From Deltaproteobacteria bacterium (GTDB lineage Bacteria > Desulfobacterota > Desulfuromonadia > Desulfuromonadales > JAAYDE01), in the NCBI GenBank assembly GCA_016934985.1, contig JAFGRU010000004.1:1-55551 (forward strand): 55,551 nt of DNA, given 5' to 3'. Below, piece by piece: positions 37,786 through 45,250 of this stretch (within the stretch, counting starts at the first letter, position 1; every line of letters begins with the position of its first letter). Below the pieces are notes generated by a model. The model made no database searches. It saw nothing but the letters and a program-made list of their open reading frames with translations, and was not told the origin of the DNA. Both the position numbers and the translations under genes were made by a program.

Positions 37786-38637
37786 ATGTTGACAGATTTA
37801 GCTGAAGTTGCTCACAAAGTAAAAGAAATTCCACCGATGCCGGTTGTGGCCGTCAAGGTCATCGAACTTCTTGGCGATCCGAAAATGACCTTTAAGAAAC
37901 TGAGTGAAGTGATTGCCAAAGACCAGGCGGTTTCAGCACGGATTTTGAAAATGTCCAATTCAAGCTTTTATGCTCCCGTGCGCAAAATCAACTCTCTTGA
38001 TCAGGCCATTGTCCTGCTTGGTGAAAATACCCTGAAAAGTCTGGTCCTGGCTTTCAGCCTCAAAGGGATCAGCCGCAAATTCGGGCTCGTTGAAAAAATG
38101 CAGTGGGAAGATTCCATGGGCTGTGCCATTGGTGCCCGCCTGGTGGCCAAATGGTACAAAAGCGCCGACCCCGAGGAAGCTTTCATGGCCGGCCTGTTTC
38201 GCCACATCGGCAGGGTGGTGATGAACAATATTGATTCCGAGAAGTATCAGATGGTGATTGAGGGTGTTTATAACGGAGAAGGTACGGTTTCCGAGTTGGA
38301 ACAGAGCTATTTCCCGTTCAGCCACGGTGAGATCGGCGCCGCCGTTCTGGCGGAGTGGAACTTTCCTGAGATGCTTATTGAGGTGGTTCGCAACCACGAG
38401 GAATTTACCGGCGAGGAGTCGGAGGAACCTGAATATATGAGAATGGCAGCCACCGTGAATCTGGCCGACCAGATGTGCCAGCGCCTGGGGATCGGAAGCC
38501 GTCTGCCTGATCACGCTGTTGAGATTGGCGAATGTCCAGGTTCCAGGGTTCTGGGCGTTGATGCCGAACAGGCGGAGCAGCTTCTGGAAGAGTTCAACAG
38601 CCTGTTCGAAAGGGACCGGGATGCCTTTTTCGGTTGA
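37786..38637 (+). CDS. HDOD-domain signalling protein
   Basis: A 283-residue protein consisting of one HDOD domain (about 10-210): KEIPPMPVVAVKVIELLGDP, VIAKDQAVSARILKMSNSSFY, INSLDQAIVLLGENTLKSLV, FMAGLFRHIGRVV, FPFSHGEIGAAVLAEWNFPE. HDOD domains are related to HD phosphohydrolases but lack catalytic metal residues; they occur in proteins governing motility, development or second-messenger responses, and the mechanism is poorly known. It is cytosolic. Start ATG 37786 is preceded by aagggg. A terminator follows at 38679. Confidence 0.88.
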   Translation: MLTDLAEVAHKVKEIPPMPVVAVKVIELLGDPKMTFKKLSEVIAKDQAVSARILKMSNSSFYAPVRKINSLDQAIVLLGENTLKSLVLAFSLKGISRKFGLVEKMQWEDSMGCAIGARLVAKWYKSADPEEAFMAGLFRHIGRVVMNNIDSEKYQMVIEGVYNGEGTVSELEQSYFPFSHGEIGAAVLAEWNFPEMLIEVVRNHEEFTGEESEEPEYMRMAATVNLADQMCQRLGIGSRLPDHAVEIGECPGSRVLGVDAEQAEQLLEEFNSLFERDRDAFFG

Positions 38638-38678
38638 AACCGGTTTCTGCCAATATTTTGACACAACATGTTTTTTTG

Positions 38679-38717
38679 AAAAGATGGATGTTATTTGATG
38701 ATGTCCATCTTTTTTTG
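38679..38717 (+). terminator. Terminator between the HDOD gene and the fadL-like gene
   Basis: AAAAGATGGA (38679-38688) pairs with TCCATCTTTT (38704-38713), followed by a run of seven T. It lies 31 bases before the next start codon, so any readthrough would also transcribe that gene. Confidence 0.8.
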
Positions 38718-38747
38718 ATTTGCCGTTTCGGGGGAGGAGACAGGTCA

Positions 38748-40007
38748 ATGACAAAAAAATCAAGCGCTTGGAGCATTGTTTGGGGATTGTGGTTTTTCTT
38801 CGCCACAATTCTGTCGTGGAACTGTCAGGTGCAGGCATCCGGTTTTGGTGTCTTCACCCAGGGGGCTTCCGCCTTGGGCCAGGCCGCTGCTGTTACCGCC
38901 CATACCAACGGCCCTTCCACCATTTTTTACAATCCCGCCCTGCTCAACGATCTCGAGGGGACCCAGCTGGAAGCCGGGACCACGCTGTTTGTTTTCAATC
39001 GTGAATTCCATAGCGATGATGACGGCGACACCCACGAAATGGAAGATAAATTAAAATTTCCGAGCACCTTTTATCTCTCCCATGTCATTAATGACAAGCT
39101 GGCGGCTGGCATCGGTCTGTTTTTCCCTTTTGGTCTGGCCACCGACTGGAAGGATGACTGGGAGGGACGATATATTTCCACCAAAGCGGAGATGGTGACT
39201 TACACACTCAACCCGGTGGTTTCCTACCGTATTCATCCCCGAGTTTCTCTGGCAGCAGGTCTTGACATTGTTTATCTGGATGCTTCCCTGGCAAACAAAC
39301 TCGATTTTTCTGTTTTGAGTGCTGATGATGGCAGTCAAAAGTTTACAGGGGATGATTGGGGTTTGGGCTACAATCTTGGTATGGCCATCCAACTTACCGA
39401 CAAGGCCAGGCTTGGTATTTCTTATCGTAGTGCAGTCGATTTGACCATTGAAGGAAACGCGAAATTTTCCGATATCCCGTCAGGCTATGAATCCAATTTC
39501 CCCAGCACAGGAGGAGAAGCCGACCTGACCCTGCCACAGCAGCTGACTTTCGGCCTGGCTTATCAAGTCAGCGAGCCGCTGATTGTGGAGGTCGGAGCCC
39601 GTTGGGAAGATTGGTCTTCCTTCGACGAGTTGGTCATCAAACTGGATCAGTCTGTGGGGCTTCCACCTCCTGGTGTTTCCGAGCAGGCCACTCGGCGCGA
39701 GTGGAGTGATACATGGTCCTTCAATGTAGGTGCCCAGTATCGGGTCAACGAAAACCTGGCTCTGTCGGCCGGGTATCTGTACGGTGACAATCCCGTACCC
39801 GACTCTTCTTTCGACCCGTCCATTCCCGACTCAGACACCCATCTTTTCACCTTGGGCGCGGACATCGATGTTGGCAATGCGACGATTTCTTTAGGTTATG
39901 GTTTTCAAAAACAGAAAGACAGGGATAAGGACTATGGTGATGCTATGGGCACCTATTCGACCGAAGCCCACCTGTTTGCTCTCAGCATCGGTTACAGGTT
40001 TATGTGA
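38748..40007 (+). CDS. FadL/OmpP1-family outer-membrane transporter
   Basis: An outer-membrane barrel for long-chain fatty acids or other hydrophobic compounds. From ATG 38748 the precursor has 419 residues: a signal peptide (WGLWFFFATILSWNCQVQAS) and the family N-terminus GFGVFTQGASALGQAAAVTA followed by the NPA motif in TIFYNPALLNDL, which plugs the barrel. The end is ALSIGYRFM, a normal final strand. The chosen start has gggggaggag nine bases upstream; a longer frame from 38634 would run through the preceding terminator. With the acyl-CoA synthetase at 16173 the cell has at least the outer parts of a fatty or aromatic acid uptake route. Confidence 0.92.
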   Translation: MTKKSSAWSIVWGLWFFFATILSWNCQVQASGFGVFTQGASALGQAAAVTAHTNGPSTIFYNPALLNDLEGTQLEAGTTLFVFNREFHSDDDGDTHEMEDKLKFPSTFYLSHVINDKLAAGIGLFFPFGLATDWKDDWEGRYISTKAEMVTYTLNPVVSYRIHPRVSLAAGLDIVYLDASLANKLDFSVLSADDGSQKFTGDDWGLGYNLGMAIQLTDKARLGISYRSAVDLTIEGNAKFSDIPSGYESNFPSTGGEADLTLPQQLTFGLAYQVSEPLIVEVGARWEDWSSFDELVIKLDQSVGLPPPGVSEQATRREWSDTWSFNVGAQYRVNENLALSAGYLYGDNPVPDSSFDPSIPDSDTHLFTLGADIDVGNATISLGYGFQKQKDRDKDYGDAMGTYSTEAHLFALSIGYRFM

Positions 40008-40061
40008 GATCTGAATGAAGTTGAGGAAGCTGTTCCCAAAACAATATCATCGGGGGAAAAC

Positions 40062-40874
40062 ATGTTTACGTACCTGATGGAAAACCAGGATGAGGCCCTT
40101 CGCCTTACCGTCAAGACCGACAAAAGCGCTCTGATCCGCCAAGCGGTCTGGGCAGGTATCCGACCCGGCATGAGGGTTGCGGATATCGGCTGTGGTGCTG
40201 GGGTGACCAGTTCTTATTTATATGATCTGGTGTGGCCGGGAGGCTCAGTAACAGGTGTGGATGCTTCACAGGAAAGAATTGAGCATGCCCGCGGGAACTA
40301 CGAAAAAGAGGGCCTGGATTTTGTCTGTCATGATTTTCACCGGGACCTGAAGGGCTTGGGGGCCTTCGATTTCATCTGGGTCCGGTTTGTTCTCGAATAC
40401 AACCGCTCCGAAAGCTTTGGTATTGTCCGGAACTTGGCCGAAATTTTAAAACCGGGCGGCATTCTCTGTCTCATTGACTTGGACTACAATTGCCTTTCTC
40501 ATTTCGGCCTTTCGCAGAGGCTCGAAAAAAATGTTCAGGGCGTGATTAAAACCCTGGAAGAAAAAGCGGATTTTGACCCCTACGTAGGGCGCAAGCTCTA
40601 TTCCTTCCTTTATGACCTGGGTTTTGAGGATATCGATGTTCAGATAAAACCCCATCACCTCTTTTTCGGTCATGTGAGCGAAAAAGACCGCTTCAATTGG
40701 ATGAAAAAATTGGAAGTGGCGGCGCGTAATTCAGGCTGGGCCTTTGAAGATTATGAAGATGGCTTTGATGGTTTTCACCAGGAGTTTGAGACTTTTTTTG
40801 CCGATCCCCGGCGCTTTACCTACACTCCTATGATTTCCTGTCGCGGCTGTCGGCCAAAAATCGAGAGACCCTGA
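40062..40874 (+). CDS. SAM-dependent methyltransferase
   Basis: A 270-residue class I methyltransferase: VADIGCGAGVTSSYLYDLVWPG (glycine motif plus following helix), VTGVDASQERIEHARGNYE, and FDFIWVRFVLEYNRS with KPGGILCLIDLDY. The C-terminal third (QIKPHHLFFGHVSEKDRFNW) resembles small-molecule or lipid methyltransferases of the UbiE-like type. The substrate is unknown. It follows the fadL-like gene by 54 bases and may be in its transcript. The 249 bases after it, up to the convergent HD-GYP gene, hold nothing I can support. Confidence 0.85.
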   Translation: MFTYLMENQDEALRLTVKTDKSALIRQAVWAGIRPGMRVADIGCGAGVTSSYLYDLVWPGGSVTGVDASQERIEHARGNYEKEGLDFVCHDFHRDLKGLGAFDFIWVRFVLEYNRSESFGIVRNLAEILKPGGILCLIDLDYNCLSHFGLSQRLEKNVQGVIKTLEEKADFDPYVGRKLYSFLYDLGFEDIDVQIKPHHLFFGHVSEKDRFNWMKKLEVAARNSGWAFEDYEDGFDGFHQEFETFFADPRRFTYTPMISCRGCRPKIERP

Positions 40875-41123
40875 ACCAGTCGCTTCTGTCTCGACTTTGT
40901 TACTATTCAGGACAAGGACTCGGGTTGCCCATGAAAAGGGCATCTGCCGCCCGGATGGCGGCAGTTAAGCCCCCATGGATGGGTTCACGCGGCGCTTGGA
41001 ATGGGTGATGCGAGGCATTGTGCCGATAATCCGAATAATTCTTCGACTGTTTCCTCGGCCCGGTTGCCACTTTTACTGGCAGCATCGACCATCCCAACGG
41101 ATCATGCTTTTCGGGTTTTAATT

Positions 41124-43193
41124 CTAGCTCTTGCCGGTCGGGGACTTGCCAAATAACCTGACATTGTTCTTGTGCGAATCTGTTTTGCCCTCCCCATTAT
41201 GGGCATCCTTAGCTGATCCTGAAGACCGGTCCAGTTCCCGACATGCCTTTTCAATGGCGTTGCCTGAAATTTTGTCGTAATAACTCATCAAAGCCCGGAC
41301 GATTTTTTCGTCAAAATGAACACCGCTCTCTGCTCTCAGGAGCCGGACGGCATCAACCAGGGGCATGGGGTCCCGGTAATGCCTCTCTGCCGTAATGGCT
41401 TCAAAAAAATCGGCTGCGGCGATGATTTTTGCCCCTAAGGGAATTTCGTCCCCTTTCAACCCGTCCGGGTAACCGCTGCCATCCAATTTTTCGTGATGAG
41501 AACCGGCCACTACGGGAACCTGTCGATAGATTCCTTCGAAATTGATCTGCTCAAGAATCTCTTTGGTTTTTGCCGAATGGGTTTTGACAATTTCGTATTC
41601 ATCCTTGTTGAGGCGCCCCTGCTTTTTCAGAATGGAATCCGGGACACCGATTTTACCGTAATCGTGGAGCAGAGAGGCAACTTTGACCATATCCCTGAAG
41701 TCATCCGAAAGCCCCAGTTCACTGCAGATTCCCAACGCGTATTCGGTGACTTTTTCAGAGTGCCCTGCGGTAAACGGGTCACGGCTTTCAATGCTGGCAC
41801 CCAGCACCCGGATGGTTGAGTTGAACTGTTTGGCGGTGTTTTCCAGGCGTTCGGCGTTGCGAATACTGACCCCGATTACGGGCGTGATCCCAAGGAGGAG
41901 ATTGAGATCGTTCTGTACCAGGGGACGTTTGGTCTTGAGATTGTCGACAAGAAGAACGCCAATGGACTCATCCTCGCAGATAATGGGACAGCAGATGCAG
42001 GATTGGACGCCCAATTTTTTTAAAAACAGAAAGCCGCGGTCAATATCCTGTTCTTCGATATTGTCTATATCGTTGATAAGGAAGGGCTTCTGTTCGTTAA
42101 AAGCACGAGAGAAAATACCTTTGCTGCTGTTTTTGTGCAGATAGAAAGGAATATTCCTGAGCAGATCCAGTTGGTTCTGGTTGTAGCCGAAGCCCGCGTG
42201 GAGGACCAGCTCCTCTTTGTCTTTGTCGGCGAGCAGCAGCAGGCCGCGGTCAAAGTCGAGACGTTTCTGGAGAATTTGGACAAGGCTGTTGAGGATGCTG
42301 TTTATGTCGGTCTGTTTGCTGATGACATGGCCGATTTCATTGGACAGCAGAACATTGTTGTAATTGATATTGATCTGATTGAGTAACTCTTCAGTGGAAA
42401 TACGAATATTCTGGAGGCTTGGCTTCACCTCTTTCTTGTGAGAAATTTCGGTTGCCAGAGCGAGGGATAGAAGGCCGATAATGCTGATGGGCAGGTAGTA
42501 GGCCAGGGTGTCATGAAGGTTGAAAAACAGCAAGATGGGAAGAAAGAGAAAGACCAGGACCGAAGTGATATTTCTGATTCTTTTCCACAAGGCGGAATAG
42601 GTTTTGGGATAGGAAATAACGTATCGGCAGCTTTCTCCCCCTTTAAACATGCATTCCGTGTGTTCGATATGCGGAATGCTATTGTTCAGCAGTTCGCCGA
42701 CGGCCTCGAAAAACCCGAGGCGATTTTCACATTGAAAGGGTTCTTCCTGGACGTCCGCTAAAGGGGTTACGTTGATTTCAACCTTGTTAGGGGCCAGTTT
42801 TTTGGATTCGTAGGAAGTCGATTTGGTGAAATGAGGTGTCGCCCGCTTGATCATGTAATAGGCGGTTGAAATGTCGAGCATGCCAAGAACGAAGTTCCTG
42901 ACCAGGCCTCTTGAGTCTGGCGATGCGCCATAGCGGCCCGCTTCACGGGCGATGTTGGGGTTGCCGGTCAGCTGAACGAGGCGCTCGTAAAAACGATTGA
43001 CCTGACTCTGGGTGAACCAGTGACTGTCGTCTCTTGCCTCGTAGGGTTTCATCCCTGCGAATGCTAGCAACTCATTGACATTGATATAACTATAACGGCT
43101 GCGGATCAGGTTGAGGTAAAGGCCGATTATCCGGCTGTTGTAGAGAGGCTTTTCAGTCGAGGCCTCCTGTTTTTGGTAGTCAGTCTTCTCCAT
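41124..43193 (-). CDS. Membrane HD-GYP cyclic-di-GMP phosphodiesterase with V4R-like and GAF sensor domains
   Basis: A 689-residue protein that should hydrolyse cyclic di-GMP. Layout: N-terminal cytosolic sensor 18-195 ending in HTECMFKGGESCRYVISY, which looks like the V4R/heme-NO-binding-related domains; two transmembrane helices 208-224 and 231-248; a linker; GAF 285-450; HD-GYP 465-645. The HD pair is H510-D511 in SLLHDYGKIGVP, the HHE is at 566-568, and GYP is 574-576 in HHEKLDGSGYPDGL. All metal and GYP residues are present, so it should be active. The C-terminal 45 residues are polar and disordered. It follows the PilZ gene by eight bases on the same strand, so the two form an operon. 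Confidence 0.9.
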   Translation of the reverse strand: MEKTDYQKQEASTEKPLYNSRIIGLYLNLIRSRYSYINVNELLAFAGMKPYEARDDSHWFTQSQVNRFYERLVQLTGNPNIAREAGRYGASPDSRGLVRNFVLGMLDISTAYYMIKRATPHFTKSTSYESKKLAPNKVEINVTPLADVQEEPFQCENRLGFFEAVGELLNNSIPHIEHTECMFKGGESCRYVISYPKTYSALWKRIRNITSVLVFLFLPILLFFNLHDTLAYYLPISIIGLLSLALATEISHKKEVKPSLQNIRISTEELLNQININYNNVLLSNEIGHVISKQTDINSILNSLVQILQKRLDFDRGLLLLADKDKEELVLHAGFGYNQNQLDLLRNIPFYLHKNSSKGIFSRAFNEQKPFLINDIDNIEEQDIDRGFLFLKKLGVQSCICCPIICEDESIGVLLVDNLKTKRPLVQNDLNLLLGITPVIGVSIRNAERLENTAKQFNSTIRVLGASIESRDPFTAGHSEKVTEYALGICSELGLSDDFRDMVKVASLLHDYGKIGVPDSILKKQGRLNKDEYEIVKTHSAKTKEILEQINFEGIYRQVPVVAGSHHEKLDGSGYPDGLKGDEIPLGAKIIAAADFFEAITAERHYRDPMPLVDAVRLLRAESGVHFDEKIVRALMSYYDKISGNAIEKACRELDRSSGSAKDAHNGEGKTDSHKNNVRLFGKSPTGKS

Positions 43194-43201
43194 ACATTCT
43201 T

Positions 43202-45250
43202 TCAGTGTTGAAAACCCCGGAAAAGCCGTTTCAGAAAACGGAAATAGTCATCCATGTAGATGAGATTCAAAACCCAAAGGGAATAAATTTTTTCAAAAGG
43301 AATTTCCTCTTCCTCGGCGTAGGACGAAGGGAAAAGAAGAATCGGCAATTCCTTACGGTTAAAACGTGTCAACAGTTCGGACAAGGTAGCATACACGACT
43401 TCCTTTGGAAAATCGTCCGGATGGATGGCAAAAACGTGCATGCAGTTGGTAAGGTCCGAGAGATTGAGGCCCAGATCCGTCAAGTTCAAGAGGATGACGG
43501 CCACCAGATTGCCATCCTTTTTCAGGGAAAAAAGATGTTTGCTTTTGGAAAAGCCGCTTTTCTCGTATTCCTGCTGGAGATCGTCAAGAAAGGCCGTCTC
43601 CAACTCCAGGTCGAGGGCGTTGATCAGCAGTCCGCCTGACTCGTTCTCATAAAACCAGGCCAACTGAGTCAAATCCTCTTTTCCCGTCGGTTCCAGGTCA
43701 TAGTTATTCAAGGCATGCTCACTTCGTGATTCCTCTTTGTTGAAATGGAAATAAGCGAAGTCATCCAGGGAGCTTTTATTAAGATTATTGAGATGGCGGG
43801 CAACACCACCGAAAATTTTATTGGGGAACTTATTCGCCGGGCGGAAATAGCAGATGGCGAACTTCATATGACTGGAAAAAAGATTTCTGGAGTCGTTAAC
43901 GAAACGGCCCATTTGGTTAAGAACCACAATTCCGGCCCGGGTGGCATTTTTTTTCGAGGCGGCATGGTGATGAAAAAGCCAGGTGCTTTCGTAAAAGCGC
44001 AGGGTGGACATATGACCGAGAATGGTGCTGCCTCGCTGATAAATAAAGTGACGGGCAATGTTCGGATGTTGGGTGTAAAGCTTATGGTAGGTTTCTCTGA
44101 GCTCCTCTTTCCGGGTTTGGATTGAAGCATATTTTTGAGGATAAATAAAGCCGGTTTCAAAGAAAAAATTCCAGAGACTGTCCATATCCACGGGGTTGAA
44201 GCAAAAAGTATTTTTGTCGCTGGCCTGCTGGAGAATACTCTCCAGCCTGACGTGGTTGGCAATATCCATGTCAAGAAGCGCAATTCCGAACCGGTATTTT
44301 TTCCCGTCGTCGGTTTCTTCCTCTGTCCGGTTAACGACCTGAGCCCGGCATTTGAAGCTGAATGTGTTGGCGAGAGAAACCTCGGCAGAATGAAGCATCA
44401 ATCCGGGAAGCAGGGCCGAGTTTTTTTCATCCTCCTCAACGGAGAAGCCGGCTCCTGAAATTTCGATGATACTGAGATGAATTTTCTTCCCGGTCAGAGG
44501 ATGGGTGAAAACCACCTCGGGTGTAGGCGTCAGGTTCAGGCGCGTACTGCGGAACTCTTTGGAGGGAAAGCGCCTGCTGAAGTGGGGTATAAGCTTGAAA
44601 ACAAAGGTTCGGTTTTTTTCCCCGCGGGTTTGCCGCACAACGGTGCATTCAGAAGAAAATGGAACTGTTTCGTTTTTGAACATGACCAGGTACCCGGGGG
44701 AGGCGGTATCGATCCAGGCAAAAGTTTGTGGTGCCTCGATGGTCAATTTAACCTTGCAGAAATAGGGGCTGAACTCGATCAGCTCACCTTGGAAGCGGGC
44801 ACTGTTCTGAAAAAACTCCACCCGTATGTTCTGGCAGGCATGACGCCGAAACGATCGAGATCTGATTTCGAGGCTTTCCTCGGGAAGACGAAGAAGTAGA
44901 CCCTGGGCATTTATTTCCTCGATTTCCGCTTCAACCCGGATGAGCTTGAGTCCGTCATCCAGGAGAATGTGATCGAACTCAAAGCTTTGCAGTTTGCCGG
45001 GCATGCCGGCGGGGTTCTCCCAGGCGATGAGTGCTTTGCCATCAAAACATGGAGCTGGCTTTCCTACCAGGGACAGGGTGCGTTTGAACTGGCGATGTTT
45101 GAAATTCAAAAGGACGGTGGCATCCTGAAAATTGATGTAATTCAGCTTGTTGACTAAATCCTGCCGCAAAACCTTTTTGGCCTTCTGGGCCAGGTTTTTG
45201 GGGGAAGATTGAACAAGTTTTGGAAGGGTTTGAGTATTACGCATTTCCAA
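43202..45250 (-). CDS. PilZ-domain protein fused to an acyltransferase-like C-terminal domain
   Basis: A 682-residue cytosolic protein. Residues 130-215 look like a degenerate PilZ/YcgR-type barrel (SFRRHACQNIRVEFF). Residues 228-340 are a clearer PilZ domain: KEFRSTRLNL, then IIEISGAGFSV, where glutamate E263 replaces the usual Asp/Asn of the (D/N)-x-S-x-x-G motif, and FGIALLDMD at the end. Residues 350-682 resemble a GNAT/FemX-like acyltransferase by pattern only (for example KDGNLVAVILLNLTDLG and CMHVFAIHPDDFPKEVVYATL). If PilZ binds cyclic di-GMP, the second messenger would switch an acyl transfer. It is upstream of, and in an operon with, the HD-GYP enzyme. The domain call for the C-terminus is tentative. 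Confidence 0.75.
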   Translation of the reverse strand: MEMRNTQTLPKLVQSSPKNLAQKAKKVLRQDLVNKLNYINFQDATVLLNFKHRQFKRTLSLVGKPAPCFDGKALIAWENPAGMPGKLQSFEFDHILLDDGLKLIRVEAEIEEINAQGLLLRLPEESLEIRSRSFRRHACQNIRVEFFQNSARFQGELIEFSPYFCKVKLTIEAPQTFAWIDTASPGYLVMFKNETVPFSSECTVVRQTRGEKNRTFVFKLIPHFSRRFPSKEFRSTRLNLTPTPEVVFTHPLTGKKIHLSIIEISGAGFSVEEDEKNSALLPGLMLHSAEVSLANTFSFKCRAQVVNRTEEETDDGKKYRFGIALLDMDIANHVRLESILQQASDKNTFCFNPVDMDSLWNFFFETGFIYPQKYASIQTRKEELRETYHKLYTQHPNIARHFIYQRGSTILGHMSTLRFYESTWLFHHHAASKKNATRAGIVVLNQMGRFVNDSRNLFSSHMKFAICYFRPANKFPNKIFGGVARHLNNLNKSSLDDFAYFHFNKEESRSEHALNNYDLEPTGKEDLTQLAWFYENESGGLLINALDLELETAFLDDLQQEYEKSGFSKSKHLFSLKKDGNLVAVILLNLTDLGLNLSDLTNCMHVFAIHPDDFPKEVVYATLSELLTRFNRKELPILLFPSSYAEEEEIPFEKIYSLWVLNLIYMDDYFRFLKRLFRGFQH

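Follow-up and report, generated by a model that had tools for sequence, protein, structure and literature searches.

What would an acyltransferase carrying receptor-type domains for cyclic di-GMP (c-di-GMP) act on, and why would its gene stand beside that of an HD-GYP phosphodiesterase? The question is raised by a 55,551-nt stretch of contig JAFGRU010000004.1 (assembly GCA_016934985.1; Deltaproteobacteria bacterium, Desulfuromonadales; JAAYDE01), all of which was analysed and is called the window here. As described in the original prediction, which was made from the letters of this DNA, a 682-codon frame encoding a PilZ-GNAT protein lies on the minus strand (43202..45250), and eight bases (43194-43201) separate its end from the start of the HD-GYP frame at 43193. 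We found that both genes belong to a larger unit, window positions 38634-45250, that is shared by distantly related bacteria and that we tentatively read as a cassette in which a c-di-GMP-gated acyltransferase would modify a small molecule, the methylated product would be sensed and c-di-GMP would be reset. We regard this reading as plausible rather than probable.

The 682 codons are counted from a TTG; the likely start is the ATG at 45244, two codons further in, which is used by the database relatives that we read and from which residues are numbered here. The predicted structure (predicted local distance difference test score, pLDDT, 89; predicted template modelling score, pTM, 0.83) comprises a YcgR-N-like domain (residues 22-125; 44870..45181), two PilZ beta-barrels and a tandem GNAT fold, all on the minus strand. 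The combination of PilZ and transferase moieties anticipated from the sequence is therefore present in the model, whereas the YcgR-N-like domain ahead of both barrels had been missed. The first PilZ-type barrel (residues 126-222; 44579..44869) was expected to be degenerate; the barrel is there, but its RxxxR motif (R130, R134) is invariant in 73 of 73 aligned rows. The second, main barrel (residues 225-343; 44216..44572) contains the expected RSTR (232-235) and EISGAG (261-266). In the corresponding DxSxxG motif, position 261 is Asp in 59, Asn in 4 and Glu in 4 of the 73 rows, and S263 and G266 are kept in 70 and 73, respectively. Pfam assigns PilZ to residues 244-339 by a narrow pass (22.8 bits against a gathering score of 22.5). 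The C-terminal half (residues 344-680; 43205..44215) is predicted to be a tandem GNAT acyltransferase, and its fold-search rows include a histidine acetyltransferase, VipF, N-myristoyltransferase, glucosamine-acyltransferase and other tandem GNATs. Of the GNAT/FemX-type transferase originally suggested, the GNAT part was supported; two fold searches, each read down to 50 rows, did not show FemX, so that a FemX-like fold has less backing.

Sequence models recognised little of this protein. Pfam gave no credible match over the final 340 residues, no NCBIfam model matched at E ≤ 1, and the top PDB chain for the protein's profile reached only E 1.3. At a limit of E ≤ 1, 24 of 31 aligned relatives showed PilZ, and each other Pfam family listed matched one member. 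The protein belongs to a large family that bears no specific name: of 7993 candidates scored, 1934 reached E ≤ 1e-3, far more than chance would give, and homologs occur in 24 of 58 nearby genomes, the source genome counted. When the transferase half was used as the query, 158 proteins passed E ≤ 0.01, of which 120 were listed. Because many of them come from short contigs and resemble fragments of the long protein, no separate stand-alone family was recognised among the matches listed, although some shorter proteins do lie on long contigs (P0184, P0219, P0179, P0237, P0211). The source genome also has a second copy (G000:C23:2044-4050, within L107 2020-4071), 41% identical, which shows FSGAY instead of an RxxR ahead of the second barrel and is possibly a c-di-GMP-blind or decaying paralog.

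We then compared the best-scoring 80 of 374 genome stretches encoding PilZ-GNAT relatives, a non-random set from one-per-species genomes. The taxa named among them are Geobacter, Geomonas, many Desulfobacterales, Candidatus Brocadia (one complete genome), Nitrospira and others; many of the loci are metagenome bins, whose taxon names may be wrong. A sensor/HD-GYP match lay directly downstream of the PilZ-GNAT gene in 48 of the 80 loci, an HD-GYP gene lay elsewhere in the locus in 7, and a sensor homolog with another output only was present in 5, giving 60 loci altogether with an HD-GYP or sensor protein. Searching with the sensor alone added a single contig-end sensor start (L041). A methyltransferase homolog was nearby in 69 loci; six of the 11 misses end within 2.1 kb downstream (L036, L040, L041, L058, L075, L089), and the other five do not end early (L050, L055, L059, L063, L090). 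When all frames were clustered, the most widespread independent family beyond these was present in 12 loci, and the clusters with intermediate counts overlap cassette genes by their representatives' coordinates and were read as shadow frames. Thus the pairing seen in the window is conserved, as had been supposed, but the unit is larger than the pair.

The same partners co-occur across genomes. In a single draw of 197 genomes from the phylum, with completeness of 90% or more and the source genome included, 21 encoded the PilZ-GNAT protein. The methyltransferase was found at E ≤ 1e-40 in 16 genomes, all of them within these 21 (Fisher 1.5e-19), and 17 genomes had the sensor protein at E ≤ 1e-90, including 14 of the 21 (Fisher 7e-14), both values being overstated because the genomes share ancestry. 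The 1e-40 cut is not decisive, since the looser E ≤ 1e-15 still separates 18 of the 21 (at least 101.9 bits) from the 176 PilZ-GNAT-negative genomes, which gave no strong methyltransferase match and three weak ones (at most 69.3 bits). Two of these 18 genomes, G058 and G095, have distant PilZ-GNAT homologs only (24-25% identity; frame lengths 785 and 966 residues), yet a methyltransferase at 32%; in one of them a long frame also gave a weak match to the sensor (21%, E 6e-6), and radical SAM-type genes, as judged by eye, occur in both. Over the 45 loci holding all three genes, the distance-matrix correlations were 0.895 for transferase and HD-GYP, 0.769 for transferase and methyltransferase and 0.775 for HD-GYP and methyltransferase, against a highest permuted value of 0.169.

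The HD-GYP gene (41124..43193, minus strand) encodes a membrane protein of 689 residues, with an N-terminal sensor, hydrophobic segments at about residues 205-250, a GAF domain (41865..42308; PF01590, 46 bits) and the phosphodiesterase domain (41301..41798; PF13487, 140 bits; HDYGK, HHEKLDGSGYP). Its H, D, G, K and HHE..DG.GYP residues are kept without exception in an alignment of 33 sequences, the window included. The sensor (residues 15-203; 42585..43151) has a predicted H-NOX/V4R fold, the aromatic sensors MopR/DmpR and Bet3 ranking below the H-NOX rows, and carries C155, H178, C181 and C189. The three cysteines are present in 36 of 36 sensors, at spacings of 26 and 8 that are identical to those of DmpR C151, C177 and C185. 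Pfam V4R scored 16.9 bits for the window sensor against a gathering score of 31, and appeared at E ≤ 1 in 16 of the 36 (best E 0.00053). The proximal heme histidine of H-NOX proteins sits near residue 102. In each of the columns 88-117, at most 3 of the 36 sensors carry His, the window being among the three with His107. A heme gas sensor was therefore rejected: the fold fits, but the conserved histidine is missing. Given the V4R-spaced cysteines and the predicted fold together with this missing histidine, the ligand is likely to be hydrophobic.

Histidine kinases sharing the N-terminal sensor stand in for the HD-GYP protein or occur alongside it in L031, L056, L061, L079, L083 and L106 (by eye), and Pfam confirms this for L083 and L106 and further for L094. 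A GGDEF diguanylate cyclase with the same sensor was expected behind the partial matches; these six frames read as histidine kinases. Some cassette HD-GYP proteins carry an extra C-terminal PilZ domain (L052:11952-14336, L105:7627-9909), and the eraser itself may therefore be under c-di-GMP feedback. In L105 (7627-9909) and L100 (2422-4704), a second HD-GYP gene of the same family lies upstream of the PilZ-GNAT gene, placing HD-GYP on both sides.

Two genes on the plus strand complete the unit in the window. The first encodes a FadL-type outer-membrane channel (38634..40007), which matched NF007988 FadL at 103 bits, below the cut-off of 585, and FadL-family PDB chains including CymD, TbuX and TodX. 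After 54 bases follows a 270-residue S-adenosylmethionine (SAM)-dependent methyltransferase (40062..40874), convergent with the HD-GYP gene and assigned by Pfam methyltransferase families; against models of small-molecule and lipid methyltransferases its scores were far under the cut-offs. Among the 27 of 80 loci with a FadL homolog, three from Brocadia (L053, L062, L065) have it on the strand of the PilZ-GNAT gene and about 40 bases upstream; L080 has it 62 bases downstream of that gene, and in the remaining 23 it is 27-531 bases from the methyltransferase, by match ends. Adjoining FadL in the window is an HDOD-type gene (37786-38637; read by eye, with a sub-threshold NCBIfam HDIG match only), which was rejected as a cassette part with matches in just 2 of 80 loci. 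A family of radical SAM-type genes, identified by eye, is represented near the cassette in L066, L068, L091, L114 and L115, in the last doubled and beside an epimerase-like gene. This family was left out of the core because its matches were strong in only 3 of 80 loci and in the two distant ones.

We prefer a c-di-GMP-gated loop because it is the simplest account using every frequent part. Cyclic di-GMP would bind and switch on the PilZ-PilZ-tandem-GNAT acyltransferase, activation being the direction in which the authors studying PixB (MXAN_2604) of Myxococcus xanthus, in the part of their report available (PMC8316039), speculate that c-di-GMP acts on its transferase activity. The tandem GNAT would acylate a small-molecule acceptor, not a protein, to give a small, probably fatty or hydrophobic product. 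The neighbouring methyltransferase may then methylate it, presumably after acylation, and the product would likely cross the outer membrane via FadL where that channel is present. The H-NOX/V4R-fold sensor of the HD-GYP enzyme would likely detect the product, and the enzyme would then lower c-di-GMP, so that the circuit turns itself off and resets. With a histidine kinase instead of HD-GYP behind the same sensor, the ligand would drive a two-component response. That these parts form an undescribed cell-to-cell signalling system, in which the product of a c-di-GMP-gated signal synthase is tailored by the methyltransferase, transported by FadL and received by a V4R-fold domain on an HD-GYP eraser or histidine kinase, is a further proposal that we consider doubtful.

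Several observations weigh against the loop. The analysis establishes that the genes exist, are conserved and occur together and that the HD-GYP residues are intact; the domain folds are model predictions, and binding, catalysis and product are all putative. The main barrel has RxxR (R232, R235) rather than RxxxR in 73 of 73 rows, and the window protein has Glu at 261, the first place of the second PilZ motif, where 63 of 73 relatives have Asp or Asn; this Glu had already been pointed out. GNATs usually carry a Q/RxxGxG/A loop for the coenzyme A (CoA) pyrophosphate. Over columns 430-440 this loop, expected at residues 435-440, is degenerate, with G438 in 72 of 73 rows but neither the G/A at +2 nor a constant Q/R at -3. 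The spacing of Glu172, the fourth zinc ligand of DmpR, does not fit His178 of the sensor, and that the ligand would be hydrophobic, and would be the cassette's own product, is suggested by fold and neighbourhood. FadL was found in only 27 of 80 loci; 20 loci lack a sensor match, nine of them with about 10 kb readable downstream; and the second copy in the source genome has no HD-GYP, methyltransferase or FadL match in the 14 kb around it. Among the genomes, three of the 21 with the PilZ-GNAT protein gave no methyltransferase match (G009, G174, G195), and the sensor protein occurs in 3 of the 176 without it (G007, G132, G170). Finally, shared ancestry of the loci as well as of the genomes means that the permutation and Fisher values overstate independence.

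The alternative that survives best is modification of the envelope, in which c-di-GMP would control acylation of a lipid, exopolysaccharide or cell-wall precursor, the methyltransferase would act on the same target and the sensor would report on the envelope or a membrane lipid. The N-myristoyl- and glucosamine-acyltransferases among the fold matches and the radical SAM-type genes near some copies fit this idea. So does HfsK (CC3689) of Caulobacter crescentus, for which such a role is proposed and which, according to the accessible part of its report (PMC5362036), is a c-di-GMP-binding tandem GNAT affecting holdfast cohesion. HfsK shares tandem GNAT and c-di-GMP control with the predicted layout of the window protein, but that part of the report describes no PilZ domain, involves a short C-terminal extension in binding where the window protein has two PilZ-type barrels, and has HfsK inactivated at high c-di-GMP, the opposite sign to the activation proposed here. 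On the other hand, no family for polysaccharide or cell-wall synthesis was recognised by eye among the widely shared neighbours in the 80 loci, where what constantly accompanies the transferase is a methyltransferase and a sensor; we thus see envelope modification as a possible but weaker explanation.

Alternatively, the transferase might acetylate a motility regulator, as is possible for PixB, with the HD-GYP enzyme tuning c-di-GMP. In the portion of the report available (PMC8316039), PixB consists of a pair of PilZ domains with a GNAT domain after them and binds c-di-GMP in vitro; it acts in motility and development, and the cell requires its transferase half. The likeness to the window protein, drawn from the described domains alone, has its limits: the RXXXR arginines tested in PixB, R121 and R331, are 210 residues apart, compared with about 100 in the window protein, and the same portion mentions no HD-GYP, methyltransferase or FadL partner, only two unnamed downstream genes, possibly in one operon. 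A search with a distant homolog returned 33 proteins, the one named entry among them not being from Myxococcus. Neither the methyltransferase, the most constant companion, nor FadL would be expected for a protein acetylase, and we judge this explanation unlikely. A system facing outside compounds, in which FadL would import and the sensor detect an environmental hydrocarbon or fatty acid, to be detoxified or tagged by the transferase and methyltransferase, draws on the MopR/DmpR and Bet3 matches of the sensor, albeit below the H-NOX rows, and on CymD, TbuX and TodX among the FadL matches. It leaves the PilZ domains on the enzyme unexplained and meets FadL in only 27 loci, and appears improbable to us. 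That the HD-GYP gene is a bystander to a transferase-methyltransferase pair is very improbable: 16 of the 20 loci without a sensor match do keep the methyltransferase, but HD-GYP is directly downstream in 48 loci, its distances correlate with those of the transferase at 0.895, and the sensor protein divides the genomes 14 of 21 against 3 of 176.

Returning to the c-di-GMP-gated loop, its nearest counterpart in outline is the diffusible signal factor (DSF) system RpfF/RpfC/RpfG. RpfF is a crotonase-type enzyme, and RpfG is an HD-GYP output with a receiver domain. The window enzyme is instead predicted to be a GNAT and carries c-di-GMP receptor-type domains, and the window HD-GYP is fused to a ligand-type sensor, with no receiver domain among its Pfam matches; because enzyme fold and receiver arrangement differ, the cassette is not a DSF member. 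The likeness lies in the fatty signal and the membrane sensor kinase described for DSF in the part of PMC5391125 available. The cassette sensor shares its predicted fold with DmpR/MopR V4R and H-NOX proteins, and with V4R also the zinc-cysteine spacing, and differs from them in the missing conserved heme histidine and in its HD-GYP or histidine kinase outputs. YcgR, VCA0042 and MrkH match the window model in the YcgR-N-like domain and/or the PilZ barrels, but their chains have 219-247 residues and no transferase half. No description of this cassette was found in the literature searches made, which covered open-licence papers of PubMed Central (PMC). The view that no named system has this pairing therefore holds for the cassette and fails for the fusion: PixB is already a PilZ-GNAT fusion that binds c-di-GMP, so the fusion is of a known kind and, as far as literature searches reach, the cassette is the new part. 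Taken together, the interpretation first offered for this locus is partly supported.

The c-di-GMP receptors of acyltransferase type that we found in the literature are PixB and HfsK, and the accessible parts of both reports leave the substrate open. Here, the enzyme is accompanied almost throughout by a methyltransferase, and also by a candidate transporter and by a protein that combines sensor and eraser, and these neighbours hint at its chemistry and at a way to its product, the more so as named culturable isolates of Geomonas and Geobacter carry the cassette. If the product does feed the sensor, the cassette would constitute a messenger-gated signal loop in Desulfobacterota-type bacteria, Candidatus Brocadia and Nitrospira.
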